From: Ruminococcus sp.
Lineage (GTDB): Bacteria > Bacillota > Clostridia > Oscillospirales > Ruminococcaceae
Assembly: GCA_017525915.1 (NCBI GenBank)
Contig: JAFXSC010000001.1
Location: 218,918-282,917, forward strand
Reading direction: 5' to 3'
Length of the DNA stretch: 64,000 nucleotides
The notes beneath the pieces are model-generated. The model was not told the DNA's origin. It searched no databases and saw only the letters and a list, made by a program, of their open reading frames with translations. Positions 3,318 through 27,777 of this stretch are shown here, one piece after another. Made by a program: the position numbers and the translations under genes. Within the stretch, counting starts at the first letter, position 1, and each line of letters opens with the position of its first letter.

Positions 3318-4306
3318 CCCGGCTTTTCCGTAACAGAGAGGTATGTATAACTCTCGCACTTATCCTCGCGGCGGCGGTCTGCGGAGCTTTCTTCACAGGA
3401 GGTAGCCTTCCCGTTTATTTTGCCGTCTGCATGGCAATTGCGGCTATATACATTGTATCAGAATACATTCATTACCGTAAGCTGAACCGTCTTACTGCCG
3501 AGATAGACAGCATTCTCCACGGCAGCGACAAGGCGCTTTCGGAGTGTACCTCCGAGGGCGATATCTCACTCCTCCGCAGTGAAATATACAAGATGACCGT
3601 GCGCCTGCGCGAAAACAAGCACAATCTTCTTGCGGAAAAGAGCTTCCTTGCGGATTCACTCGCGGATATCTCCCATCAGCTCAGAACTCCGCTGACATCT
3701 GTAAATATCCTGCTGACGATACTCTCACGCAGCGACACATCCGCTGAGCGCCGGAGGGAACTGCTCATGGAGCTTCAGGAGATCATCTCACGGACGGACT
3801 GGCTCATAACTACCCTCCTCAAACTTTCAAAGCTCGACGCCGGCGCAATAAGTCTCCGCAGCGACAGTCTTCTGCTGAAAGATGTCATTGCAAATGCCTG
3901 TATGCCGCTGGAAATAGTCATGGAGCTGCGCGGTCAGGAGCTGAAGGTCAAGGCAGACGGCGGCTTCACAGGGGATATGGTCTGGACCTGCGAGGCTGTC
4001 TCGAACATAGTCAAGAACTGCTCCGAGCACACGCCCGAGGGTGGCTGCATAAGCATCACAGCCTCCGAAAATACGCTGTATTCCGATATAGTGATACAAG
4101 ATAACGGAAGCGGCATCGACCCGGAAGACCTTCCGCATATATTTGAGAGGTTCTATAACGGCAAGAATCACAGCGACAAGAGCTTCGGCATAGGGCTTGC
4201 GCTTGCACGGAGGATAATCACCGAACAGAACGGCATCGTCAAAGCCGATAATGCTCCCGGCGGCGGCGCTGTTTTCACGCTGAGATTTTTCAAGTCAACA
4301 GTATAA
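3314..4306 (+). CDS. Sensor histidine kinase
   Basis: A 330-residue membrane kinase. Two helices at about residues 11-29 and 32-52 are joined by only a few residues, so there is almost no extracellular sensor loop. This is the intramembrane-sensing layout seen in kinases that work with ABC exporters. The H-box ADISHQLRTPLTSV places the phospho-His at 121. N-box NIVKNCSEHT, G1 DNGSGID, F-box FERFY and G2 GIGLALAR complete the ATPase domain. The gene overlaps its response regulator by ATGA. The short sensor and the divergent transporter suggest detection of transporter activity or of a membrane-active compound. Confidence 0.95.
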   Translation: MTRLFRNREVCITLALILAAAVCGAFFTGGSLPVYFAVCMAIAAIYIVSEYIHYRKLNRLTAEIDSILHGSDKALSECTSEGDISLLRSEIYKMTVRLRENKHNLLAEKSFLADSLADISHQLRTPLTSVNILLTILSRSDTSAERRRELLMELQEIISRTDWLITTLLKLSKLDAGAISLRSDSLLLKDVIANACMPLEIVMELRGQELKVKADGGFTGDMVWTCEAVSNIVKNCSEHTPEGGCISITASENTLYSDIVIQDNGSGIDPEDLPHIFERFYNGKNHSDKSFGIGLALARRIITEQNGIVKADNAPGGGAVFTLRFFKSTV

Positions 4307-4338
4307 AAGCCATAAAGGAATCCCCTTTATGGCTTTTG
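4305..4338. terminator. Bidirectional intrinsic terminator
   Basis: Inverted repeat AAAAGCCATAAAGG / CCTTTATGGCTTTT with a short loop, lying between the convergent kinase gene and the ECF S-component gene. A-rich and T-rich flanks allow it to end transcripts from both sides. Confidence 0.85.
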
Positions 4339-5025
4339 TCATACCCCGTATTTTATCTTTATCCGTTCCAGTTTTTCGCCGAAAGGTCTCGCAAGCAGTG
4401 CCAGAAACAGCACATTCGATACCGCATACGACACAGTGTACGGTATTGCCGTTCCCAGTGCTGCAAAGTAAAGGTTCCACTGAAAGCCCTCCGCATACCA
4501 CAGAACAGTCCAGATATCCATGATAAACGAATAAGCCACTCCGGCAGCCGCTCCGTAAATGAGAAGCAGTATCCTGTTTCTCCGCAGAGGCTCCGACAGT
4601 ATCCCTGCAAACAGCCCTATCATGCCCCATGCAAGCATCTGGAAGGCTGTCCAAGGTCCCTGCCCGAAATAGAAATTCGACAGCAGCGCCGACATCGCTC
4701 CCACAAGGAATCCTGCCTCTCCGCCAAGATAGAGCGCGGTGATTATCGTCAGCGCAGTCATCGGTTTCAGAAAGGGTATGAACCTTCCGGCAAAACAAAG
4801 TGCGGTCATAACCGATACTATGACCATGCGCCGCGTACCGGTAGACTTTTTCTCGAAGCCGGCCGCGAATAGAAGCAGTGCAAATGCCGCTATCGCAAGG
4901 GATATGATGATATGCCGCTTCCGCGCGAACGCCGCCGAACCCAGCACTGCAAGCGCCGGTATCACGATGAAGGGAACTGCCGCCTTTATGCCGCTTCTCA
5001 GTTTCCTGCTCTTTATTACTATCAT
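4339..5025 (-). CDS. ECF transporter S component (probable cobalamin-specific subunit)
   Basis: A 228-residue, highly hydrophobic protein. Two helices near residues 12-58 precede a typical ECF S-component core beginning with RRMVIVSVMTALCFAGRF and continuing through AFQMLAWGMIGLFAGIL and VAYSFIMDIWTVLWY. S components bind a vitamin and toggle in the membrane when docked on EcfT. It is the last gene of a five-gene operon, 1 nt after the double ATPase gene. Substrate choice rests on context: DUF4430 (transcobalamin-like) surface proteins and a B12-type leader head the operon, so cobalamin is inferred. Another vitamin or a queuosine precursor cannot be excluded from this sequence alone. Confidence 0.82.
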   Translation of the reverse strand: MIVIKSRKLRSGIKAAVPFIVIPALAVLGSAAFARKRHIIISLAIAAFALLLFAAGFEKKSTGTRRMVIVSVMTALCFAGRFIPFLKPMTALTIITALYLGGEAGFLVGAMSALLSNFYFGQGPWTAFQMLAWGMIGLFAGILSEPLRRNRILLLIYGAAAGVAYSFIMDIWTVLWYAEGFQWNLYFAALGTAIPYTVSYAVSNVLFLALLARPFGEKLERIKIKYGV

Positions 5026-5026
5026 A

Positions 5027-6658
5027 TCAGTCCTCCCGGCGTCCGTTCATGCGGCACAGACTTATAACATCGTCAAGGACTGCCGTCCGGTCGTATATCC
5101 CCCTCGCCATGCGGCTCGCCGCCGTGGTATAGAAAGTATTTGCCGTGAAGAAGTCCTCCGGAGTGCCTGTTGACACTATCTGTCCGCCGAAGAACATAGC
5201 GCAGCGGTCGGCGCACACAGCGGCAAATTCAACGTCGTGCGTGACGGCGACCACAGTTATGCCGCTGTCACGGAGCTTCTTCAGTACGTTTATTATCCCC
5301 TGCTTCGTTGCGGCGTCCATGCCCTTTGTCGGCTCGTCAAGGAGGAGAAGCTTCGGCTTCGCCGCAAGCACCTTCGCAAGCGCGGTGAGCTGCTGCTCGC
5401 CGCCGGAAAGGTCATAGGGGTGCTTGTCCATAAGGTGCGAAAGGTCATAGGGCAGCGCCGCGGCATCAGCCCCGGCTTCGTCAAGCTCCTCGCGCACCGT
5501 ATTCCGCAGGAACACGGTCTGAACGTCCTGCGGCAGCATCGCAAGGCACTCGCGGTAGAGCGAACGGTTGCGGTATTCCTTCTGCTTTTTCCCGAAAATG
5601 CGGATATCTCCGCAGTAGGGACGGAGTATACCGGCAGCAGCCGACAGCGCAGTGGTCTTTCCGGAGCCGTTTCCGCCGAGTATGCAGAACAGCTCACCCT
5701 TCATTATTTTAAGCGAAAGACCGCTGAGAACGTCCGGGGACTGCCTTTCATAGCGGAAGAACACGTCCCGGAACTCCAGCGCAGTTTCGGTGGCGGAGGA
5801 CTTCTCCGCGGCAGGGAGAGAACGTATCTCATTGCGGAAGCCCGCGGCGATGTACTCCTTGCCCTCGCGCACGGTAAGCGGACATTCTCCGCCGCTGTCA
5901 AGCGCCGCATAGAGCCTTGAAGCTGCCGGCATTCCGCAGAGCAGCTCCGGACGTTCCCGGAGAGATGCAATGACCTCGCGCGGACTGCCGTTTGCGGTTA
6001 TGCCGCCGTTTTCCATGACGATGAGCCTGTCGCAGAGCGGAACCGCTTCTTCAAGGCGATGCTCCGCAAGGAGTATTGTAATACCAAGCTCCTGATTGAG
6101 CTTTCTGAGGGTTGAAATGAACTCTGAAGCGGCTATCGGGTCAAGCTGCGCGGTCGGTTCGTCAAGGATAAGGAGCTCCGGCTGCATAACCAGCACCGCC
6201 GCAAGGTTGAGGAGCTGTTTCTGTCCGCCGGAAAGTTCTGCGGTATCGCTGCCGTACCAGCTTATGATGCCGAAATAGCTCGCTATCTCGGCAGTTCTCC
6301 GTGCTATCTCCTCCTGCGGCACACCGAGGTTTTCAAGCCCGAAGGCAAGCTCGTGCCACACCTTATCGGTGACGATCTGCTGCTCCGGTCTCTGCATTAC
6401 AAAGCCGATGCGCGAGGCTGAATCCCTTGCGCTGAGTTCACCGAGAGGCGATCCGCAGAACATTACCCTGCCGGACATTTCACCGTTGGGTATAAGCTCA
6501 CGCTTGAGCATACGCAGGAGAGTGGATTTTCCGCTGCCGGTCGCACCGCAGAGCACCGCGAGCTCTCCCCTTTCAAGGCGGAGCGAGGCATTTCTCAACG
6601 CCGGTGAAATGCACTGAGGATAGCTGAACGTCAGATCCTCGACCGCAAGTATCTCCAC
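5027..6658 (-). CDS. ECF transporter double ATPase (fused EcfA1-EcfA2)
   Basis: 543 residues carrying two complete ABC domains. The first has GATGSGKST, LSGGQKQLLNLAAVL and LLILDEPTAQLDP; the second has GGNGSGKTT, LSGGEQQLTALAKVL and LLLLDEPTKGMD. Most ECF systems use two separate ATPases, while this fused form resembles YkoD/CbiO2-type proteins. The start is GTG at 6658, chosen because GGAGGTG lies 8 nt upstream and because the family motif LAVEDLTFSYP follows directly. It overlaps the EcfT gene by 28 nt and is followed after 1 nt by the S-component gene. It powers uptake through EcfT and the S component. Confidence 0.93.
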   Translation of the reverse strand: MEILAVEDLTFSYPQCISPALRNASLRLERGELAVLCGATGSGKSTLLRMLKRELIPNGEMSGRVMFCGSPLGELSARDSASRIGFVMQRPEQQIVTDKVWHELAFGLENLGVPQEEIARRTAEIASYFGIISWYGSDTAELSGGQKQLLNLAAVLVMQPELLILDEPTAQLDPIAASEFISTLRKLNQELGITILLAEHRLEEAVPLCDRLIVMENGGITANGSPREVIASLRERPELLCGMPAASRLYAALDSGGECPLTVREGKEYIAAGFRNEIRSLPAAEKSSATETALEFRDVFFRYERQSPDVLSGLSLKIMKGELFCILGGNGSGKTTALSAAAGILRPYCGDIRIFGKKQKEYRNRSLYRECLAMLPQDVQTVFLRNTVREELDEAGADAAALPYDLSHLMDKHPYDLSGGEQQLTALAKVLAAKPKLLLLDEPTKGMDAATKQGIINVLKKLRDSGITVVAVTHDVEFAAVCADRCAMFFGGQIVSTGTPEDFFTANTFYTTAASRMARGIYDRTAVLDDVISLCRMNGRRED

Positions 6659-14676: not shown

Positions 14677-15450
14677 TTAATGCTGCCTTATTTTCAGCAC
14701 GCTTCTCGCGTATGCAAGGCTCTGGCGCAGCTGATCTTCCTTATCAAGTCCCGCAAGCCGGAGCTTGTGGGCGTATCCGAGTATTTCCGAAAGTTCCTCC
14801 GAAGGCGCAAGCCCTGCATTTATGAGGTCCTGCCCGGTGACATACGGACGCGCCATTATTTCCGTGAACTCCGCATATCTCCGCATCAGGAACTCCTCGG
14901 TATCTCCGCACTGCGGAAGCTTTCCGAGCCCGTCGCAGACAGCAAGCTGTATAAGGTCATAAGGCGCGCACGATCTGTCGAACAGCCTGTTGGCCTTTTT
15001 CAGCTTTGACCCAGTTGCCGCCAGTTTATTCGGTTCCATGTGCAGCTCGGTCATGTTCAGAACGTACCCCGTCAGCTCTGCATCTGCGGCAAGGCGCTCC
15101 ATGAACTGCCGGACTGCGGGAAGTCCGAGCGTTTCGTGCTCGTATGAGTGAACTCTGCCGTCCTCTGAAACTGTTGTGCAGACCGCTTTCCCGAAGTCGT
15201 GGCACAGCGCCGCGAGCATGAAACCGAGCGGATTTTCAGCTCTGCCGCGCCGTTTTGCAGCTTCATCGAGCACCATCATCGTATGCGTCCAGGCATCGCC
15301 TTCAAGGTGGTATTCACGGTTCTGCATAACTCCGATGAGCGCCTTCAGTTCCGGGAACCAGCCGCCGAGCTGTTCCGCTGCGCGGAGCTGTTCAAAGTAA
15401 GCGGAAGGGCGTTCCGACTTCAAAAGTGCATTTTCAAGCTCCGTCAGCAT
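14677..15450 (-). CDS. HD-domain phosphohydrolase (tRNA nucleotidyltransferase-like HD)
   Basis: 257 residues. The metal-binding HD motifs are visible: H in EGDAWTHTMMVLDEA, the HD pair in ALCHDFGK and a further His in HSYEHETLG. The N-terminus ELENALLKSERPSAYFEQLR resembles the region next to the HD domain in tRNA nucleotidyltransferases, but the catalytic head is absent. ATG 15450 is preferred because GGAG lies 9 nt upstream; it overlaps the WYL gene by 17 nt. Substrates of this group include nucleotides and RNA 2',3'-cyclic phosphates, but none can be assigned here. It is the last gene of an operon with two WYL proteins. Confidence 0.8.
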   Translation of the reverse strand: MLTELENALLKSERPSAYFEQLRAAEQLGGWFPELKALIGVMQNREYHLEGDAWTHTMMVLDEAAKRRGRAENPLGFMLAALCHDFGKAVCTTVSEDGRVHSYEHETLGLPAVRQFMERLAADAELTGYVLNMTELHMEPNKLAATGSKLKKANRLFDRSCAPYDLIQLAVCDGLGKLPQCGDTEEFLMRRYAEFTEIMARPYVTGQDLINAGLAPSEELSEILGYAHKLRLAGLDKEDQLRQSLAYARSVLKIRQH

Positions 15451-16438
15451 TTTCATCATCTCCGTTTTCCGCAAGCAGTTCCGCCTGACGTTTTACGCGC
15501 ATCTTAGCCTGTTCTCTCAGATGTGCCGGACCGAGTATCTCGATAACGGGTCCGAAGCTGAGAAGCTGTATGAGCAGTTCTGTCTCGTCCTGCTCATCGT
15601 ACCATATCTCGACCTTGTATTCTCCGGTCGCAAGGTCGCGGACGGTGTGCTTCTCATACGAGGCGAACTCCAGCATGAAGCGCTCCACACCGTTGCGCTC
15701 AGTGGTCACTCTTATCAGTGCCGGACTGCTGCATTTCCTGCTCAAAAAATAGCCATCAACAGACACCGGTGTGCGGAAGGTCCTGCCCGTATCAACAATA
15801 CTCGTAATGCGCCCGATGTTGATTACTCCGCTGCTCTTTATCCTGTCGTTCCGCAGCAGATAGCAGTACGCCCGGAACTTGTCGTTCTTGGGGGAATACT
15901 CCAGTTTCAGCAGCACGAACTTTCCGCTCATATGCTTCCCATGACCCGAAACGAACTCGATGAACACTATCCTCCTGTGCCTGACGGCTTCGAGCGCGGT
16001 ACGGAAATTCCTTATATAGTCCTCGCTGGAATAATCATCGCTGTCGGAGAAGCGGTCCGTGAACCCGAACTGCTCCTTCTTGTAGAGCGGAGTTACATCA
16101 GCAAGTCTTTCATCAAGACGCACAAGGGCTTCGCCGTCCATGAAAAGCCTTATCCTCGGGTCGGAGAGCTTGGCTCTGAGCCACATTTTCTGTAATTTCG
16201 TGAGTACCCTGACCGGTGCGTTCTTAGTGATGCGTCTGAGTTTTCCGTCAGCTCCGCGGCTGAAAAGTCCCCAGTCCTCGCTGCCGGGAATGAGCTTCTG
16301 CGGCAGGAAAAGAACTGAATCCCGGAAGCCTTCGCGCTGGACAGTCTCACGCACCGTCTTCTCGTCAGTAACTTCGTTTTCGAGAAGCTTTGCCGCTATC
16401 CGGAAATATGTGCCGTAAATCTCACTGAATATGTTCAT
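15434..16438 (-). CDS. WYL-domain protein (second of pair)
   Basis: 334 residues from ATG 16438 (GTG 16447 is an alternative). The central and C-terminal part has the WYL features: LEAVRHRRIVFIEFVSGHG, LLKLEYSPKNDKFRAYCYL, then NIGRITSIVDTG. WYL domains are ligand-binding domains of bacterial regulators and of several defence and CRISPR accessory proteins and can bind nucleic acid. No clear helix-turn-helix is visible at its N-terminus, unlike its neighbour. It overlaps the first WYL gene by 17 nt and the HD gene by 17 nt, so the three products are probably made in fixed proportion. Confidence 0.82.
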   Translation of the reverse strand: MNIFSEIYGTYFRIAAKLLENEVTDEKTVRETVQREGFRDSVLFLPQKLIPGSEDWGLFSRGADGKLRRITKNAPVRVLTKLQKMWLRAKLSDPRIRLFMDGEALVRLDERLADVTPLYKKEQFGFTDRFSDSDDYSSEDYIRNFRTALEAVRHRRIVFIEFVSGHGKHMSGKFVLLKLEYSPKNDKFRAYCYLLRNDRIKSSGVINIGRITSIVDTGRTFRTPVSVDGYFLSRKCSSPALIRVTTERNGVERFMLEFASYEKHTVRDLATGEYKVEIWYDEQDETELLIQLLSFGPVIEILGPAHLREQAKMRVKRQAELLAENGDDENADGA

Positions 16439-17696
16439 CTTCATCACCGCCGTACATTCTGTTCATTCGCGCAATATCGGCGCGGAAGCGCTTCTTTACC
16501 GTGTCCGGACCGCCCTCGATGCGGACTATCCTGCCGATAAACGTCTTCACCCAGTGCATGAGCTCGTTAGGGTCAAATACGTCAGCCGTCAGCGTATAGA
16601 GGTTATCCCCTGACCTTTCAAGCGTGCAGCAGCGCTTTTCACGTTCAAGGCGCTCGATGATATAGCGCTCATTTTTTTCATCAGCATAAAATATTATCTT
16701 TATCAGCGGAAACGTTCCGTTCTCGCTCCTCGAACCGAAGGATACTCCGAAACACCGGGACAGATTGCGGTCAAAGCTCTCTTTCAGTTCGTCATACTTT
16801 TCGCAGATATCCCCTGTCTTTACACTGTTCATGCAGTCGAGACGGAACGCCGTGAAGCGTTTCTGTCCCGGGATATATGCCGCAAGGTACCGCCTTCCCG
16901 TCTGAACGGAAACGAGTATCTTCATCGGCACCGCACGGGTCTCAGCGGTATTGTCAGCGCCCGTCATGAGCTTTTTCGCCGAAAATGTCCGGAAGATGAT
17001 AAAGCACCTGCCGTCCATAGCTTTGAGTATCTCCGGTATAAGCACATCTTCAAGCGTGTGGATAATATAATTATGCTTGAAGAAAAACAGTTCGTTTCTG
17101 AGCCCGAGCATTTTGAGTATACTGTTGCCGATAATGCCGAAATGCTGGGCTTCGGAAAAAAATTCCAGCGCATCGTCAAGTCCGGGGAAGTCCCTGATGA
17201 AACCGTCAGCACTGTCGCCGGACAACGAATAGTACATGGTCTTGCCCTGCTTGCCGGAAATGATTATCCCCTCATCAACGTATTCCTTCAGCTTGTTGCG
17301 GACGGTCTGCTCGTCAAAAAGCTGTGAATAATCAGTGTTCAGGGTATCCACAAGCTCCTTCAGCGAACGGCTCCTGGCGTCGTGCAGAATGTCAGTCAGA
17401 AAGAAATGCAACCGGATATCATTATCTGTGAAGCTCTTGGAATAATAGGCGTTATACAGCGGATTTTCGGGAATATTGCTGCTGTTCACGGATATGGAAA
17501 CGCTCCTGCCGCGGACGGAATCGTCATAGCGCATACAGTCGCCCATCCAGCTTTCAACGCGGCGTTTTTCATCACCGTATGTGCGGACACTCTTGCGGTC
17601 AAAGTCGCTGCGTACCTTGCAGCCGTATATGAAAAAGTCGCGGACATAGTCACGGGTCTTGTCGAAATTCTTGATGAGTTCAGAAAAGCCTGCCAT
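16422..17696 (-). CDS. WYL-domain transcriptional regulator (first of pair)
   Basis: 424 residues from ATG 17696 with GGGGGG 5 nt upstream. After an unusual N-terminal segment, residues 95-165 look like a winged helix (RSRSLKELVDTLNTDYSQLF, DEQTVRNKLKEYVDEGIII). The WYL region spans about 235-330 (KAMDGRCFIIFRTF, VPMKILVSVQTGRRYLAAYI), followed by a C-terminal extension (LMHWVKTFIGRIVRIEGG). It probably senses a ligand and controls transcription of its own operon or of the divergent RNA/TROVE-like locus, whose first hairpin begins about 200 nt away. Its N-terminal 90 residues match nothing I recognise. Confidence 0.82.
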   Translation of the reverse strand: MAGFSELIKNFDKTRDYVRDFFIYGCKVRSDFDRKSVRTYGDEKRRVESWMGDCMRYDDSVRGRSVSISVNSSNIPENPLYNAYYSKSFTDNDIRLHFFLTDILHDARSRSLKELVDTLNTDYSQLFDEQTVRNKLKEYVDEGIIISGKQGKTMYYSLSGDSADGFIRDFPGLDDALEFFSEAQHFGIIGNSILKMLGLRNELFFFKHNYIIHTLEDVLIPEILKAMDGRCFIIFRTFSAKKLMTGADNTAETRAVPMKILVSVQTGRRYLAAYIPGQKRFTAFRLDCMNSVKTGDICEKYDELKESFDRNLSRCFGVSFGSRSENGTFPLIKIIFYADEKNERYIIERLEREKRCCTLERSGDNLYTLTADVFDPNELMHWVKTFIGRIVRIEGGPDTVKKRFRADIARMNRMYGGDEDEHIQ

Positions 17697-17942
17697 TTCT
17701 TCTCCCCCCTTCTCAATGCGGAATTATGGTGTCCGCTTACGCGGGCATATCAGAATAATATTATTGATCGCCGTCAAGCGATACCGATAATTCCGGATCA
17801 CGGATCCTTTATTGACCATCATTATTATAATAACAAATAATCCTCCGATTTGCAATACCCGGAGTGTGTGCAGAAAAAATTATATGATTTTTACCAATTA
17901 CTGTGATATACTGTAATCACAGCAGAGGTACGAAATCTCTTT

Positions 17943-17993
17943 AAGGCACAAACAGCAATCGACATTATCCTGTCACGATAACTAACGTGCCTT
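17943..17993 (+). ncRNA. Array element A
   Basis: Closing stem AAGGCAC (17943-17949) / GTGCCTT (17987-17993). ACAGCA is at 17952-17957. An inner hairpin GACA-TTATCC-TGTC lies at 17961-17974. The 3' side of the internal loop reads TAACTAAC. Confidence 0.8.
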
Positions 17994-18002
17994 GCTATTT
18001 CA

Positions 18003-18062
18003 GGCGCTTACAGCAAATACTATGACCATGAAACTTTTTTAGTCTCATAAACTAAGAGCGCC
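18003..18062 (+). ncRNA. Array element B
   Basis: Closing stem GGCGCT (18003-18008) / AGCGCC (18057-18062). ACAGCA is at 18010-18015. Inner hairpin ATGA-A-ACT / AGT-C-TCAT (18028-18048) has a T-rich loop. The 3' side of the internal loop reads AAACTAAG, close to that of element A. Confidence 0.8.
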
Positions 18063-18067
18063 GAGTT

Positions 18068-18134
18068 AAGACGCAAACAGCAGATATGTCTGATTTTCTT
18101 TATCCGATGGGATAAATGATGATTATTGCGTCTT
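18068..18134 (+). ncRNA. Array element C
   Basis: Closing stem AAGACGC (18068-18074) / GCGTCTT (18128-18134). ACAGCA is at 18077-18082. Inner hairpin TTTATCC (18099-18105) / GGATAAA (18110-18116) is perfect with a GATG loop. Confidence 0.82.
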
Positions 18135-18147
18135 GAATCACAATCTT

Positions 18148-18225
18148 ACGGCTCTTACAGCATTATTTTCCGGGACGCAGGAGGCTGCCCCGACGGGGGT
18201 TAGCACTGTGAAAAAAACGAGCCGT
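18148..18225 (+). ncRNA. Array element D (GC-rich interior)
   Basis: Closing stem ACGGCTC (18148-18154) / GAGCCGT (18219-18225). ACAGCA is at 18157-18162. The interior holds two small stems, GCAG-GAGG-CTGC (18177-18188) and CCCC-GAC-GGGG (18188-18198), then GTTAGCACTG, which faintly resembles a tRNA D-loop (GGTTAG). Confidence 0.8.
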
Positions 18226-18227
18226 GT

Positions 18228-18306
18228 AAGTCAGCAACAGCAGAAGAAATTGGCTATTTGCAGGTTCAAATCCCGCCGGACAGAAATGTCCAGAATACGC
18301 TGACTT
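18228..18306 (+). ncRNA. Array element E with tRNA-like T-arm
   Basis: Closing stem AAGTCAGC (18228-18235) / GCTGACTT (18299-18306). ACAGCA is at 18237-18242. Inside lies GCAGG-TTCAAAT-CCCGC (18260-18276), a T-arm with a canonical 7-nt T-loop and one A-C mismatch. Next comes GGACA-GAAA-TGTCC (18278-18291), a perfect stem with a GNRA tetraloop. A T-arm without acceptor or anticodon arms fits tRNA mimicry as known in bacterial YrlA-type Y RNAs, not a tRNA gene. Confidence 0.82.
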
Positions 18307-18360
18307 GAAAGTTACACTTTTCCTGCCGGATACCGGCGGTGACTTGAAAGGAGAATTGAA

Positions 18361-19833
18361 ATGCTCAACTACTTAAAGAAGGAATCCAACATTACTGCTA
18401 CCGAGAACGATGCTCTGGCTTACCGTTCGTCGGAGTCGTTCTGCCTCGACTTGTTCTTCAAGGCAGGCGCTATGCGAAATACCTCCCCCGAGGATATCGC
18501 AGACGCAGTTACACGCGCTTACGCTGAAGATCCCGACAAGGCAATGAAGATAGTCTTCTTCGCCCGTGATGCAAGAGGCGGCCTCGGCGAGAGGCGCTTC
18601 TTCCGCTGCGCTGTATCTTCACTCGTCAGAACAGCTCCCCGTGCTGTCGAGAAGAATATCCCCCTATTTGCTGAGTACGGCAGATTTGACGATCTCTGCG
18701 TACTGCTCGGCACTCCCCTGGAGAAGTCCGCGGCTGCTGAGATAAAGTCTCAGCTTTATAAGGACATCGCCGCTATGAACGTCGGCGAGCCTGCTTCGCT
18801 GCTCGCAAAGTGGCTGCCATCCGCTAACGCTTCCTCTCAGGGTACACGCAATTCCGGCAGACGCATGGCTGCTCTGCTCGGCATGAGTGAGCGTGAGTAC
18901 CGCAGAACGCTCTCCGCTCTCCGCAGATATACCGACATTCTGGAGAACCGTCTCCGTGAGCGTGACTACACCTTCGACTATGAGAAGCAGCCCTCGTGCG
19001 CGATGTTCAAGTACCGCAAGGCTTTCAGCCGCAATGACGGCGAACGTTACTCTGCGTACCTCAACAAGGTCGAGGAGGGTACTGCAAAGCTCCACGCAGA
19101 CAGGCTTTTCCCCTATGACATAATCCGTGCCGCACTCAGCGGAAACGTTTCCGAAAACGAAAGACGCTCCCTCGATGCAGCGTGGAAGGCACTTCCCGAC
19201 CTGACTGCTGCAAAGCGCGAAAACGCTCTTGCAGTCATCGACGGCTCCGGCTCCATGACCTCTGGCTGCGGAAGCATACGCCCCATAGATGCGGCTCTGT
19301 CGCTGGGCATATACTTCGCTGAGCACAACAGAGGCGAATTCGCAAACCACTTCATAACCTTCTCGCAGACTCCCCGTCTGGTGGAGATAAAGGGCAGGGA
19401 TATCGTTGAAAAGGCAACATACTGCCGTACCTTCAACGAGGTCGCAAATACCGACCTTGAAGCGGTATTCAAGCTCATACTCAAGACTGCGATAAACAAC
19501 AAGGTTCCGGCCGGCGAAATGCCCTCGAAGCTCTACATCATCTCGGATATGCAGTTCGACTACTGCGTGACCGGCGGCAACAACGAGGTATTATTCAGGG
19601 CAATGAAGACGCTGTACCGCAATTACGGCTACGCACTGCCCGAGATAATCTTCTGGAACGTCAACTCGCGCTGTGACGCGATACCCGTGACACGCTCCGA
19701 GACCGGTACGGCACTGGTATCCGGCTACTCCCCTGCTGTGTTCGATATGGTAATGGGCGGCGAATGTTCACCCGAGACCGTGATGAACAGGATACTCTCC
19801 TCGGAGAGATATGCACCTGTGACATCGGCATAA
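18361..19833 (+). CDS. TROVE/DUF2828-like protein with vWA domain (Ro60 relative)
   Basis: 490 residues. Residues 1-280 form a helical repeat region with the DUF2828/TROVE-like signature FFARDARGGLGERRFFR (67-83), then YGRFDDLCVLLG and LAKWLPSANASS. Residues 288-480 form a von Willebrand A domain with the MIDAS motif AVIDGSGSM (Asp294, Ser296, Ser298) and IISDMQFD. Ro60/Rsr proteins have the same order: a HEAT-like ring that binds misfolded and Y RNAs, then vWA. GAAAGGAG lies 8 nt upstream of ATG. The five Y-RNA-like hairpins are directly upstream on the same strand, so the protein probably binds those RNAs. RNA binding is inferred from the family, not shown here. Confidence 0.85.
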   Translation: MLNYLKKESNITATENDALAYRSSESFCLDLFFKAGAMRNTSPEDIADAVTRAYAEDPDKAMKIVFFARDARGGLGERRFFRCAVSSLVRTAPRAVEKNIPLFAEYGRFDDLCVLLGTPLEKSAAAEIKSQLYKDIAAMNVGEPASLLAKWLPSANASSQGTRNSGRRMAALLGMSEREYRRTLSALRRYTDILENRLRERDYTFDYEKQPSCAMFKYRKAFSRNDGERYSAYLNKVEEGTAKLHADRLFPYDIIRAALSGNVSENERRSLDAAWKALPDLTAAKRENALAVIDGSGSMTSGCGSIRPIDAALSLGIYFAEHNRGEFANHFITFSQTPRLVEIKGRDIVEKATYCRTFNEVANTDLEAVFKLILKTAINNKVPAGEMPSKLYIISDMQFDYCVTGGNNEVLFRAMKTLYRNYGYALPEIIFWNVNSRCDAIPVTRSETGTALVSGYSPAVFDMVMGGECSPETVMNRILSSERYAPVTSA

Positions 19834-20535: not shown

Positions 20536-21222
20536 TCAGTTCTCTTGAACTATTTGATATCTGAAAATATCAATTGGCTTTCCAGATGTTGTTTTCCACA
20601 CCAACCAGCCATTGTTTGCTTTTCCAAGCGGTATCCAACCGGCAGTTGAGGGTGAGTCACATTCAACGTCTTCCATTAAAGCATTGTTTTCTATTATTGC
20701 AGCCCGTCTAACAGCAGGTGCCCAATTGCCAGTAACAGGAGCACATATACTACCTTTTAAAACAATGAATTTACCGTTTTCAACACGCATTTTAGCTGTA
20801 ATAGTGCCAAATCCACGGCGATTCTCTTTCATAATATATATGCCATCAGGTATCATTGTCATCCCTATATTTTCTTGCCTTTTTTCAGTAGCCTCAGCAA
20901 ATACCTCTGCTTTTGTTGCGTCTTCTGGATATACTTGTTTTCCCTCAAAAGAAGTAAGGAGCTGTATCACCAAATCAACGTCAACAGCGAATAATTCTGA
21001 ATTTTGCAGGCGGCTTTTATCAAACAAACTGTGAAGCAACGTTTCCTTTTCATCATATTCGTCAACTTCAATTGCAAAACGCCGCTTTAATCCTACCACA
21101 TTGTTGTAGCCGTTACGTTCAAGGTTATACATTCTGTTTTCAAATTGATTAGAAGCTGTTTTACCAATTTTAATCAGTCCCGGAACAACAGTTTCCATAA
21201 TATAAATAATGCCGTTTGCCAT
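20536..21222 (-). CDS. GIY-YIG (T5orf172-like) protein with DUF4357 domain
   Basis: 228 residues from ATG 21222 with AAGGA 7 nt upstream. Residues 1-90 look like a GIY-YIG/T5orf172 nuclease domain (GIIYIMETVVPGLIKIGKTA, RMYNLERNGY). The C-terminus resembles DUF4357 (GKFIVLKGSICAPVTGNWAP, GWLVWKT). It is visibly more AT-rich than its neighbours and uses rarer codons, a sign of recent acquisition. It follows the RlmD-like gene after 2 nt. Proteins of this kind occur in mobile elements and defence islands; the substrate here is unknown. Confidence 0.8.
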   Translation of the reverse strand: MANGIIYIMETVVPGLIKIGKTASNQFENRMYNLERNGYNNVVGLKRRFAIEVDEYDEKETLLHSLFDKSRLQNSELFAVDVDLVIQLLTSFEGKQVYPEDATKAEVFAEATEKRQENIGMTMIPDGIYIMKENRRGFGTITAKMRVENGKFIVLKGSICAPVTGNWAPAVRRAAIIENNALMEDVECDSPSTAGWIPLGKANNGWLVWKTTSGKPIDIFRYQIVQEN

Positions 21223-21224
21223 AA

Positions 21225-22631
21225 TCAATTCCTTTCATCTTTAGAAAACTTTGACATCAAAACTACGCACTCAACGTGCCTTGTTCTCGGGAAGAAATCA
21301 GCCGGTCTCAGCACATCGAGAGCAAAGCCCCTGCCGCACAGATAAGCGGCATCGCGGGCGGCAGTAGAGGGATTACAGGAGATCATAACAATCCTCGAAG
21401 GCGACATATCAACGCAGGCTTTCAGGGTAAGTTCATCGCAGCCCTTGCGCGGAGGGTCGAGGACAATGATATCCGGCGCCTTCCCCTCAGCAGCGAACCT
21501 TGCAGCTATCTCACCGGCATCACCTGCATAAAATTCAGCGTTTTTGATACCGGCACGCTCTGCGTTTGCCTTAGCGTCCTCGATAGCCTGCGGAACTACC
21601 TCAACGCCGATAACTCTGTCCACGCTGTCAGCCATTGAAAGTCCTATTGCACCTGCACCGCAGTACAGATCAAGAAGCAGCTCATCCTTTTTCGGAGCGG
21701 CAAGCCTTTTCGCCTCGGCAAAAAGCCTCTCAGCCTGTGCGGTATTCACCTGATAAAAGCTCTGCGGACTGAGCGTTACCGGCACGCCGCAGAGAGTGTC
21801 CGCGATAACGGGATTCCCGAGCAGACAAACGGTCTTATCTCCGAGAATGACATTGGTCTTCAGCGGATTGACATTCAGCATTACGGAGCGGACGTCCGGA
21901 AAATTCCTGATAACAGTATTGCCGAGGGTAGTAAGAGCCGTGCGTATCTGAGAGGAGTCCTTTGCGGTTATAAAGCAGACCATTATTTCCTTGCTGTGGA
22001 AGCCCTGTCTGATGTAGATATGGCGGAGAACACCGCTGCCGTTTTCCTCATTATATGGAGTTATGCAGGGCAGCTCACCTGAACCGAGTTCTTCTCTGCA
22101 CAGCCTCAGTATATCCCCGAAAACGAAAGGCTGGAGATCACAGTAGGTCACGGGAACGAGCCTGTGCGAGCGCGGAGCGTAGAATCCGAACTCAGGAAAG
22201 ACCTTGCCGTCCTGATATTTGTAGTCGGCATAAGGATACTGAGCCTTGTTGCGGTAGCCCTCTGTCTCCTCAGCACCGAAGATCGGCAGGGTCTCTGCCG
22301 GTGCAAGATGACCTATGCGCGTGAAGGCATCCGAGACTATCTGCGATTTTATGCGGCATTCAGCCTCATAGGATATATGCATGAATACACAGCCTCCGCA
22401 CTTTTTATAGTGCGGACATTCCGGCGTAACGCGGTCGGACGAGGGCGTTATGAGCTTTTCGATTATGCCGTAGGCGTAGCTTTTCAGCACCTTCACGATA
22501 CGCACCTCGGCAACGTCTCCAACAGCGGTATCAGGTACAAAAACGGCAAAGCCGTCCGCCCGGCACACGCCGCTTCCCTCGGAGGTAATATCGGTTATCT
22601 CGGCGGTGATTATCTGATTTTTAGTTAGCAT
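21225..22631 (-). CDS. rlmD: 23S rRNA (uracil-5-)-methyltransferase, RlmD/RumA type
   Basis: 468 residues from ATG 22631; an ATG at 22658 would add 9 residues but lacks a ribosome site. Order: TRAM domain (residues 1-60), iron-sulfur motif CPHYKKCGGCVFMH with a further Cys in YEAECRIK, then a Rossmann methyltransferase with LLDLYCGAGAIGLSMAD, VLDPPRKGCDE and the catalytic Cys in MISCNPSTAARDAAYL. It makes 5-methyluridine in 23S rRNA from SAM. Several RumA-like copies are common in Bacillota, so the exact position (U747 or U1939) is uncertain. It is divergent from the lipoprotein gene at 22706. Confidence 0.9.
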   Translation of the reverse strand: MLTKNQIITAEITDITSEGSGVCRADGFAVFVPDTAVGDVAEVRIVKVLKSYAYGIIEKLITPSSDRVTPECPHYKKCGGCVFMHISYEAECRIKSQIVSDAFTRIGHLAPAETLPIFGAEETEGYRNKAQYPYADYKYQDGKVFPEFGFYAPRSHRLVPVTYCDLQPFVFGDILRLCREELGSGELPCITPYNEENGSGVLRHIYIRQGFHSKEIMVCFITAKDSSQIRTALTTLGNTVIRNFPDVRSVMLNVNPLKTNVILGDKTVCLLGNPVIADTLCGVPVTLSPQSFYQVNTAQAERLFAEAKRLAAPKKDELLLDLYCGAGAIGLSMADSVDRVIGVEVVPQAIEDAKANAERAGIKNAEFYAGDAGEIAARFAAEGKAPDIIVLDPPRKGCDELTLKACVDMSPSRIVMISCNPSTAARDAAYLCGRGFALDVLRPADFFPRTRHVECVVLMSKFSKDERN

Positions 22632-25482: not shown

Positions 25483-27777
25483 TTATATAGCTGCACGTTC
25501 AACCGAAATAACGCCCTTGATCTTCCTGAGCTTTTCAAAGAGGTTCCTGAGCTGTTCGGTGCTGGAAATGACGATAGTCCCCTCAAAGAGAGCGTTGCCG
25601 TTTTTGAGCACACGCGATGATGAATGGACGATCGGCACTCTTGCCTCCATGAGCACAGCCGATATGTCATAGACAAGCCCCATGCGGTCAACCGCTGTGA
25701 CCTCAAAACTCGTCTGAAGCTGTGAATCGCTGTTCTCTGACCACTGTATATCGCACCAGCGGCTGAGTTCCTCGGGGATATTCCTCTGGAGCACCGCCTT
25801 GTAGTTGGTGCAGTTGGTCGTATGTACCGATATGCCGTGTCCGCGGGTTATGAAGCCGACGATGTCGTCACCGGGGAGCGGATTGCAGCACTGTGCGAAT
25901 TTTACGGCAATATCCTCTATCTGGTCGAGGATAATGCCCGTTCTGCCGTTTGCCTTGGGCTGAATGAGCGGTACAGGCTCATGATCGGAACCGGAATTCA
26001 TCTTCTCATACTTGTCCTTGAGACGGGGTATGATCTTTGAGAGCATGATACCGCCATAGCCTATCGAGGCATAGAAATCGTCAAGCGTCTCGCAGTTGTG
26101 GCGCTTGAAATCGTCCTCGAGGAATTCCTCGTAATCCTCCTCTTTCAGGTTGATGCGGTGACGCTTGAACTCGCGCTCGAGCTCTGCCTTGCCCTCGATG
26201 ATATTCTCATCGCGGCGCTCCTTCTTGAACCACGAGCGTATCTTTGAACGTGCCTCGTTGGTCTGGACTATGTTGAGCCATGCCCTGTTCGGTCCCTTGT
26301 CGGGGTCCTTGCTGGTGATTATCTCGCATATCTGTCCGGTCTGGAGCTTATAATCGAGGGGAACTATCCTGCCGTCAACCTTTGCACCGGTGGTCTTATG
26401 ACCTATCTCGGTGTGGATACGGTAAGCAAAGTCGATGACGGTGGAGTTTACCGGAAGACTTACGGACATACCCTTGGGCGTCATTACGACGATATCCTCG
26501 GGGTCGAGGTCGGTCTTGATAATGCGGACTATCTCCTCAACGTCGTCGGAGGTCTGCTGAGCCTCGATGACCTGCCTTACCCACGCAAGGCGCTGCTCCA
26601 TCTTGTCCTTGCCCTGAATACCCTCCTTGTACTTCCAGTGGGCAGCGATACCGTATTCAGCGGTCTCGTGCATATCCCATGTGCGTATCTGCACCTCGAA
26701 GGGGATGCCCTCCTTGCCGAGGACGGTAGTGTGAAGGGACTGGTACATATTCGATTTCGGGGTCGAGATGTAGTCCTTGAAGCGGTTCGGCAGCGGACGG
26801 AACATATCGTGTATCAGACCGAGCACGTTGTAGCACTCGGCAATAGTCCCGACGATTATCCTGACTGCATATTTATCGTATATTTCGTCGATATTCTTGT
26901 GATTTATGAATATTTTGCGGTATATGCTGTAAACGCTCTTTACTCTGCCGTCAACCTGCGGCGGCTCGGAGAATTCCTCGGACTTGAAGCGCTGGTTGAT
27001 GCGGTTCTTGATAGTCTCAATAAAAGCCTCACGCTCCTCCTTCTTGTTTTCGAGGATATGTTCTATCTCGGAGTAGGCGTAGGGGTCGAGATAATGGAAT
27101 GCGAGGTCCTGGAGCTCCTCCTTTATCGCTCTGATACCGAGACGGTGAGCGATAGGGGCATATATATTCATGGTCTCAAGGGCAACATTGCGCTGCTTTT
27201 CGTGCGGACGGTATTTCAGGGTACGCATATTGTGCAGGCGGTCGCAGAGCTTGATTATCATGACACGGATATCCTGTGACATTGCAAGGAGTATCTTGCG
27301 GATATTTTCTGCCTGCTGCTCCTCACGGCTGAATATCGGTATTTTACCGAGTTTTGTAACGCCGTCAACGAGCATCGCAACGTCCTGACCGAAACGCTTT
27401 TTCAGGTCGTCAAGCGTCGCGGGAGTGTCCTCCACGACATCATGCAGAAGGGCGGCACAGACGGTATCGGTGTCCATACCGAGTTCAAGCACGATATATG
27501 CGACAGCAAGAGGGTGAATGATATAATCCTGTCCGGACGAGCGCTTCTGTCCCTCATGAGCCTTCGCAGCGAACTCATAGGCAGAAATGATCTTGCTGAG
27601 ATCGTACTGCTTATCCTCCCTGAGTATCTTCTGGATTATCATTTCAACAGTAAAGTTGTCGTCATAATCCGGTATCTCGCTGAGATACTTCTCCGGGTCG
27701 CGCGGCTCGGCGGTATCCGGTATCGGCACGCCCTGCTCGGGATGCTGAGCATTTTTGGTATTCATGTCATCATTCAT
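25483..27777 (-). CDS. relA: Bifunctional (p)ppGpp synthetase/hydrolase RelA/SpoT
   Basis: 764 residues from ATG 27777 behind GGGGGG. The N-terminal HD hydrolase is intact (KRSSGQDYIIHPLAVAYI, ALLHDVVEDT), followed by the synthetase (YDKYAVRIIVGTIAECYNVL, STPKSNMYQSLHTTVLG). A TGS domain (VVMTPKGMSVSLPVNSTVID), a Zn-ribbon-like region (FAQCCNPLPGDDIVGFITRG) and a C-terminal ACT domain follow. It makes and degrades the stringent-response alarmone. The gene follows recJ after 34 nt, a conserved linkage in Bacillota. Confidence 0.96.
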   Translation of the reverse strand: MNDDMNTKNAQHPEQGVPIPDTAEPRDPEKYLSEIPDYDDNFTVEMIIQKILREDKQYDLSKIISAYEFAAKAHEGQKRSSGQDYIIHPLAVAYIVLELGMDTDTVCAALLHDVVEDTPATLDDLKKRFGQDVAMLVDGVTKLGKIPIFSREEQQAENIRKILLAMSQDIRVMIIKLCDRLHNMRTLKYRPHEKQRNVALETMNIYAPIAHRLGIRAIKEELQDLAFHYLDPYAYSEIEHILENKKEEREAFIETIKNRINQRFKSEEFSEPPQVDGRVKSVYSIYRKIFINHKNIDEIYDKYAVRIIVGTIAECYNVLGLIHDMFRPLPNRFKDYISTPKSNMYQSLHTTVLGKEGIPFEVQIRTWDMHETAEYGIAAHWKYKEGIQGKDKMEQRLAWVRQVIEAQQTSDDVEEIVRIIKTDLDPEDIVVMTPKGMSVSLPVNSTVIDFAYRIHTEIGHKTTGAKVDGRIVPLDYKLQTGQICEIITSKDPDKGPNRAWLNIVQTNEARSKIRSWFKKERRDENIIEGKAELEREFKRHRINLKEEDYEEFLEDDFKRHNCETLDDFYASIGYGGIMLSKIIPRLKDKYEKMNSGSDHEPVPLIQPKANGRTGIILDQIEDIAVKFAQCCNPLPGDDIVGFITRGHGISVHTTNCTNYKAVLQRNIPEELSRWCDIQWSENSDSQLQTSFEVTAVDRMGLVYDISAVLMEARVPIVHSSSRVLKNGNALFEGTIVISSTEQLRNLFEKLRKIKGVISVERAAI

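Follow-up and report, generated by a model that had tools for sequence, protein, structure and literature searches.

The window analysed here is a stretch of 64,000 nucleotides (nt) from a Ruminococcus sp. genome (assembly GCA_017525915.1, contig JAFXSC010000001.1, positions 218,918 to 282,917 of the forward strand), and all coordinates refer to it unless another locus is named. Directly 5' of a gene at position 18361 that encodes a Ro-like protein, a predicted bacterial relative of human Ro60, its plus strand carries an array of five hairpins (A to E), four of which possess one exact layout that we denote the handle. It consists of a stem of 7 base pairs (bp), two nucleotides, the motif ACAGCA, an inner part (the cargo), the 3' stem arm and one unpaired G. 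A sequence-only reading had described five consecutive hairpins, and its letters and positions are right. It had interpreted them as copies of a single structured RNA family, probably Y-RNA-like ligands of the adjacent protein.

Array of handle RNAs beside a Ro-like gene

17943..17993, plus strand: handle RNA A, stem AAGGCAC/GTGCCTT, linker AA, ACAGCA, unpaired 3' G at 17994; the cargo is an anticodon-type arm
17965..17981, plus strand: anticodon-arm mimic in A, TTATC-CTGTCAC-GATAA; the loop equals the tRNA-Asp (GUC) loop of the same genome
18003..18062, plus strand: hairpin B, GGCGCT/AGCGCC with ACAGCA; an off-register or degenerate handle
18068..18134, plus strand: handle RNA C, stem AAGACGC/GCGTCTT, linker AA, ACAGCA; the cargo is a long AT-rich hairpin
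18148..18225, plus strand: handle RNA D, stem ACGGCTC/GAGCCGT, linker TT, ACAGCA; GC-rich cargo with an asymmetric internal loop
18228..18306, plus strand: handle RNA E, stem AAGTCAG/CTGACTT, linker CA, ACAGCA; cargo with TTGG (D-loop-like), a T-arm-like part GCAGGTTCAAATCCCGC with a single mismatch, plus a hairpin capped by GAAA at 18278-18291
18361..19833, plus strand: Ro60-like protein of 490 amino acids, DUF2828 followed by a DUF7788 vWA domain with D294-x-S-G-S

In elements A, C, D and E all seven stem positions are Watson-Crick pairs, ACAGCA stands exactly 2 nt past the 5' arm and the 3' G is unpaired. The earlier description of paired closing stems with ACAGCA 1-2 nt inside the 5' arm is confirmed, in one exact form for these four; hairpin B has 6 bp plus one G-T pair in a shifted register and does not fit the common layout. 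The elements are 51, 60, 67, 78 and 79 nt long and their single-sequence folding z-scores from A to E are -3.95, -1.67, -4.24, -2.84 and -2.60, so that B alone is unconvincing as a structure. In some relatives the second element is a regular handle whose anticodon arm carries CTGTTAA (Asn) or CTTTTAA (Lys); examples are L031 -541 and L043 -440. The sequence AACTAA, noted before as common to A and B, is indeed present in both but is not kept in the relative L002, so its sharing is probably a coincidence. A simple tandem repeat of one RNA was ruled out since the handle alone is common to the elements.

The covariance model R1 described below matches only A and C in the window's own genome, with E-values of 1.4e-8 (relatives of the A type went into building the model) and 6.2e-5, respectively. 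At cut-off no Rfam family was found in the window and a permissive scan of 17880-18360 returned nothing credible, a YrlA model in Rfam being left unchecked; ARAGORN called no tRNA in the window. In the cargo of D neither a tRNA part nor any known RNA was recognised. The type D cargo (18172-18215 and relatives) shows a recurrent asymmetric internal loop, e.g., CGCAG-AGA-GC...GC-A-CTGYG, and may copy another structured RNA.

The protein encoded at 18361 matches DUF2828 (2.1e-33) and DUF7788 (1.4e-44) of Pfam. Its predicted fold is a helical-repeat ring followed by a vWA domain with a metal ion-dependent adhesion site, as in solved Ro60, and on this ground it is predicted to be a ring-plus-vWA relative of Ro60/TROVE proteins, in agreement with the original description of the neighbour as TROVE-like. 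Neither this protein nor any other of the genome matches Pfam TROVE (PF05731), so it represents a diverged branch that is Ro-like by fold. No sequence match was found among solved structures or in NCBIfam, and the literature searched mentions DUF2828 in four papers, which judging by their titles all deal with plants. Genome G058 contains an additional, incomplete Ro-like gene (L229, G058:C20), and no handle was detected in front of it.

Conservation of the handle and co-occurrence with the protein

The genus survey covered 125 genomes, 66 of which contain a match to the protein. We fetched 64 loci, 62 from the genus and two from other families of the order; G059, G040 and G160, which have gene fragments only, were left out of the locus set. 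After removal of L090, where the gene start lies off the contig, the remainder and the window make 64 usable loci; Ruminococcus flavefaciens XPD3002 (L160) is one of the strains with the locus. Each of the 64 shows one handle or more in the 1 kb that precedes the gene. Homologous arrays stand beside the same protein family elsewhere, as had been expected. In this region 246 of 322 ACAGCA copies sit in an exact handle. When the motif is permuted, none of the 59 other versions yields more than 10 handles, with the exception of the register shifts CAGCAA (77) and AACAGC (52), and downstream of the gene only 2 of 35 ACAGCA copies fit a handle. The geometry around ACAGCA is not due to chance. Because the motif predicts a stem of differing letters, this permutation test demonstrates covariation without circularity, and the structural constraint proposed by the sequence-only reading is borne out over many different stems.

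A wider net of 1.6 kb upstream yielded 278 elements with 49 different stems. The 3' G is present in 246 of the 248 elements with the exact motif; the other 30 elements, with one mismatch in the motif, were admitted only if they had this G. All loci together, including the further genome and viral loci of the following section, comprise 462 distinct elements with 101 different stems. With a stem of 7 bp, a 2-nt linker and one base at the 3' end, the handle presumably reproduces the geometry of the tRNA acceptor stem, positions 8-9 and position 73.

In 47 elements of the anticodon type all 12 pairs of handle and arm vary on both sides. Their pairing cells are filled in 99.0% (72.1% in shuffled controls) and their covariation amounts to 0.585 versus 0.177 shuffled and at most 0.117 slid, a count that is partly circular and supportive only since the elements were picked for pairing; the permutation test is unaffected. 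The model R1 was built from these 47 elements, which come partly from the genomes searched with it. Among the 125 genomes 59 have both an R1 match and the protein, seven the protein only, one the RNA only and 58 neither. The RNA-only genome (G106) has a single weak match (E 3.9e-4). By hand count 123 of the 126 R1 matches lie upstream of the gene on the same contig within about 3 kb. The others were located in G106 and, for G105 and G027, on contigs that differ from that of the gene.

Distribution beyond the genus and in phages

Other genera also carry handles. Further genome loci and loci from IMG/VR were taken as the best 80 of larger match lists. An upstream handle with the 3' G is found in 30 of the 34 further genome loci (L203-L236), a set that overlaps with the first one by at least four records (L204, L219, L225 and L236). 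In IMG/VR such a handle occurs in 61 of 80 loci, counted with duplicate elements left in, and in L276, L281, L282 and L315 handles were detected only downstream of the gene (scan of 1.5 kb). The protein family is present in 681 of 50,697 phage records, including Felix O1 and phages of Listeria, Enterococcus, mycobacteria and B. subtilis, among the last FADO (host BEST7003). Among 100 phage rows, in which some records appear twice, its members are labelled hypothetical, RNA-binding, Ro-like, vWFA or DUF2828, or have no label.

Four isolate phages, chosen for diversity, were opened and all four contain handles. They precede the family gene in Listeria phage cka18 (three, directly upstream) and in EFDG1 (three, one of which reads ACAGCG), and they follow it in LeBron (three, including one GCAGCA) and in Felix O1, whose four handles lie among tRNA genes. 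No handle with the 3' G was present in ten canonical TROVE loci, which were drawn from 398 genomes of the phylum and searched over about 3 kb each.

tRNA-like cargoes

Many cargoes mimic tRNA at the level of sequence. The array represents one RNA family, as was first supposed, only with respect to the outer handle; the inner parts are different modules, many of them tRNA-derived, such as the anticodon arm in A and the D-loop-like GG with a T-arm in E. Relatives of handle RNA E have the T-arm GCAGG-TTCAAAT-CCTGC. The 462 distinct elements comprise 113 with an anticodon-type arm (15 of them also with a T-arm), 72 with a T-arm alone and 277 others. In the first set (266 elements) the classes are 60 anticodon, 44 T-arm and 162 other. 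The further genome loci (75 elements) divide into nine anticodon, 20 T-arm, six with both and 40 other, and the viral loci (121 elements) into 29, eight, nine and 75, respectively.

Many 7-nt loops in the elements follow the rules of anticodon loops. Loops of the pattern CT...A[AC] are flanked by at least four of five pairs at 118 of 217 sites in the 462 elements, and 14 control heptamers are flanked by pairs in 3 of 88 to 15 of 65 cases; for the T-loop pattern the count is 57 of 72. A loop identical to a native anticodon loop found in G000 is present in 37 of 278 elements, compared with a mean of 0.38 and a maximum of 3 in 200 shuffles, and since the sequences are related and not independent these loop counts are not probabilities. 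The commonest anticodons are GUC (17), GUU (17), UUU (16), GAA (12), UGA (10) and UUC (8). Depending on the species the constant 5-bp arm TTATC/GATAA bears the anticodon GUC, UUC, UCC or ACC, with ATGAAAA in 3 of 21 loci. The constant arm TCATA/TATGA bears UUU, GCU or GUU, and once CAGGATT, and further arms are swapped likewise.

Some cargoes comprise nearly whole tRNAs. Out of 147 ARAGORN calls on the plus strand of the examined regions, 10 place a tRNA inside an element. In one of these, from L234, the two handle arms enclose D-, anticodon (GAA) and T-arms. Some cargoes of EFDG1, LeBron and Felix O1 are, by eye, permuted tRNA bodies composed of a T-arm, a loop-closed acceptor stem and a D-arm. 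In L258 two tRNA matches (4200-4329 and 4342-4469, of 130 and 128 nt) carry an ACAGCA insert at the place where the anticodon arm is expected, and these two sequences resemble handle RNAs that have been circularly permuted. In ten other loci scanned with Rfam, tRNA was the only family at cut-off. The tRNA pieces, as far as sequence can tell, suggest that the handle RNAs stand in for tRNAs under attack or repair.

Between handle elements of L208 (Pseudoflavonifractor phocaeensis An858) lies a tRNA-like sequence (5374-5449) without a handle, with a called anticodon AAU.

Neighbouring genes and upstream signals

17907..17912, plus strand: -10-like TATACT with TG one base 5', inside the inverted repeat TGTGATATACTGTAATCACA (17902-17921)
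17870..17889, plus strand: block GCAGAAAAAATTATATGATT; by eye a similar block precedes the array in some relatives
16422..17696, minus strand: divergent gene without Pfam match; homologue in 70 of 94 bacterial sets (51 and 19) and 0 of 80 viral sets
15434..16447, minus strand: WYL/WCX-type regulator; homologue in 63 of 94 bacterial sets (45 and 18) and 0 of 80 viral sets
14677..15474, minus strand: HD-domain protein similar to the C-terminal portion of CCA-adding/repair enzymes; its NCBIfam match is far below the curated cut-off

Neighbouring genes were clustered by BLAST in 64 plus 30 distinct bacterial sets and 80 viral sets, after L090 and four duplicates had been dropped. The regulator encoded at 15434 matches WCX of Pfam (6e-6) and WYL of PADLOC (1e-10). 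A cluster of CCA-adding-like proteins is represented in 16 sets (15/64 and 1/30 bacterial, 0/80 viral) and one of RtcB proteins in 44 sets (31/64 and 12/30 bacterial, 1/80 viral); one member of each was checked with Pfam. The viral clusters include a class-V aminotransferase of the cysteine-desulfurase type (11 loci), Band_7 (10), a kinase-like AAA_33/HD protein (9) and, in 6 loci, a protein whose match to RNA ligase stays below the cut-off.

By eye, TGTGATATACT or ATGCTATACT form -10-like blocks before the arrays of some relatives. The TATACT of the window was not picked up by a consensus scan, and a promoter with a 17-nt spacer was ruled out as the candidate hexamer is 11 nt away, so that only an extended -10 is suggested. 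TATACT is surrounded by the inverted repeat TGTGAT...ATCACA (17902-17921), and a sixth ACAGCA at 17919 lies outside any handle. The block GCAGAAAAAATTATATGATT is possibly a regulator site. The minus strand at 20536-21228 encodes a T5orf172/DUF4357 protein with a match (5e-104) to PDC-S57, a candidate defence model of PADLOC.

Relation to known Ro ribonucleoproteins

There is precedent for bacterial Y RNAs that contain a tRNA-like domain. According to PMC8394870, YrlA RNAs are 90-150 nt long, contain D, T and acceptor arms, have a stem formed by the 5' and 3' ends and are linked to RtcB repair operons; the basal stem tethers the Ro protein Rsr and the tRNA-like domain binds PNPase. The handle RNAs resemble YrlA in being small RNAs beside a Ro-family gene with a predicted end-to-end stem and, in relatives, a link to RtcB. 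The resemblance to its tRNA-like inner domain is partial: in the window E alone has a T-arm-like part and a TTGG, over all loci 72 elements have a T-arm alone and 15 a T-arm and an anticodon arm, and permuted bodies occur in phages. The handle RNAs differ in standing in a row, in their constant ACAGCA handle and in their size of 51-79 nt, in view of which they are classed as Y-RNA-like and not as YrlA. Moreover, handles of relatives carry anticodon arms of many identities and whole tRNAs, and the partner in the window is a DUF2828 protein without the TROVE match. The sequence-only reading knew of no described family with this tandem pattern. In the literature searched, neither ACAGCA handles nor such arrays nor Y RNAs with anticodon arms were found to be described, which is weak evidence of absence since most subscription work, including the main YrlA papers, was outside reach; the class as such has the precedent just described. 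The novelty here lies in a cargo that copies tRNA.

In Salmonella the rsr-yrlBA-rtcBA operon brings together a Ro protein, a tRNA-mimic RNA and RtcB under a divergently encoded regulator (PMC7790460). Some relatives of the window have the same three components and a divergent regulator. Here the divergent genes are of the WYL type instead of RtcR, the RNAs stand in rows, a CCA-adding-like protein occurs in part of the loci, and the window's own locus has no RtcB.

For Listeria phage CKA15 the accessible text of PMC12282133 reports highly transcribed non-coding regions near a Ro-like gene, suggests upstream Y RNAs and lists the Ro-like CKA15_055 in purified particles, which could therefore carry this protein into the host. 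Handles, arrays and anticodon mimicry are not mentioned in that text. Provided that cka18 and CKA15 are colinear, positions argue against identity of the array with the top transcribed region of CKA15 (26,236-26,727), which would lie about 1 kb before the gene. In cka18 (L317, 1960-2550) there is a long non-coding-looking stretch between tRNA genes and without handles that, colinearity assumed, may match this most transcribed region by position.

Clusters of phage tRNA genes are found near the handles of Felix O1 and EFDG1. The handle RNAs themselves cannot be normal tRNAs as their ends are in the handle and, in the window, no CCA follows the 3' G and ARAGORN made no call.

Proposed function

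The Y-RNA-like nature of the array RNAs, for which the sequence-only reading had chosen the right class, is well supported. Co-occurrence, the common handle and the predicted fold point to them as probable partners of the Ro-like protein, and the handle probably binds the protein encoded at 18361. We give roughly equal weight for and against the full proposal, in which the locus would encode a multi-member Y-RNA-like Ro ribonucleoprotein acting in the response to tRNA damage, with cargoes that may serve as tRNA decoys. One leader transcript would be made and cut into four or five discrete short RNAs, each of which would display a cargo on a handle as the likely site of protein binding. The nearly whole tRNA cargoes of relatives, with their ends buried in the handle, should not be chargeable. 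When tRNAs are cut the cargoes would occupy anticodon nucleases and other tRNA-handling enzymes as decoy or bait, and partner enzymes such as RtcB would rejoin the ends, with WYL-type genes in control. In view of the mimicry and of the RtcB and CCA-adding neighbours, it is rather probable that the locus has a role in tRNA damage. Decoy action is proposed more tentatively, as the most economical reading of anticodon loops that are copied exactly and swapped.

Several observations weigh against this proposal. RtcB is not beside the window's array, and the one RtcB gene of the genome was found elsewhere with no handles in the surrounding 3.8 kb. No anticodon nuclease was seen among the neighbour families checked, where no search was aimed at such nucleases. 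The 277 other elements have no tRNA part recognisable by these tests, and three of the five in the window (B, C and D) are among the unexplained. In Salmonella, YrlA fragments were undetected under an SOS-induced anticodon nuclease (PMC7790460), and the partial circularity of the covariation count has been mentioned above.

Sequence alone cannot separate a decoy from a scaffold, in which the handle would hold the Ro protein and a tRNA-like cargo would dock PNPase or another tRNA-binding enzyme or close the Ro ring, with each of several RNAs serving as a separate adaptor in RNA decay or quality control. YrlA offers a precedent for such tethering, and the T-arm cargoes and permuted T/acceptor/D cargoes would fit; the exact, identity-swapped anticodon arms stay unexplained and the YrlA domain is named as D, T and acceptor arms, so that we regard a scaffold or gate as rather unlikely. 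A sensor is improbable. Here tRNA-targeting enzymes would cut the displayed arms, and the cut RNAs or their ends would signal to the divergent WYL regulator and switch on a repair operon. It would account for two conserved divergent genes, one of WYL type, and has an analogy in the RtcR-controlled operon, which responds to damaged tRNAs (PMC7790460), but both divergent-gene clusters lack a member in the 80 viral neighbourhoods despite handles there, and no ligand is known. That the hairpins are merely a cis-acting leader, through which the mRNA that follows is controlled in its translation or decay, is very improbable: bacterial arrays do lie directly before the gene and a consensus scan finds no terminator-like plus-strand site in between, but elements follow the gene in Felix O1 and LeBron and stand only downstream in the four IMG/VR loci named above, and a whole-tRNA cargo is unsuited to a leader.

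The decoy proposal can be extended to a retargetable RNA shield, composed of a universal Ro-binding handle and exchangeable tRNA pieces whose specificity would be changed via a swap of the anticodon triplet alone. Bacterial and phage panels of such RNAs might draw off or sense anticodon nucleases in conflicts between phage and host or between bacteria, a possible but speculative scenario.

Significance

The role of bacterial Ro proteins and Y RNAs is an open question, to which the array contributes many probable Ro partners that can be defined by sequence. As these RNAs have a constant end and readable cargoes, mutation of ACAGCA or of the anticodon provides direct tests. Should the decoy reading be true, the handle RNAs would represent a new kind of RNA-based tRNA protection.
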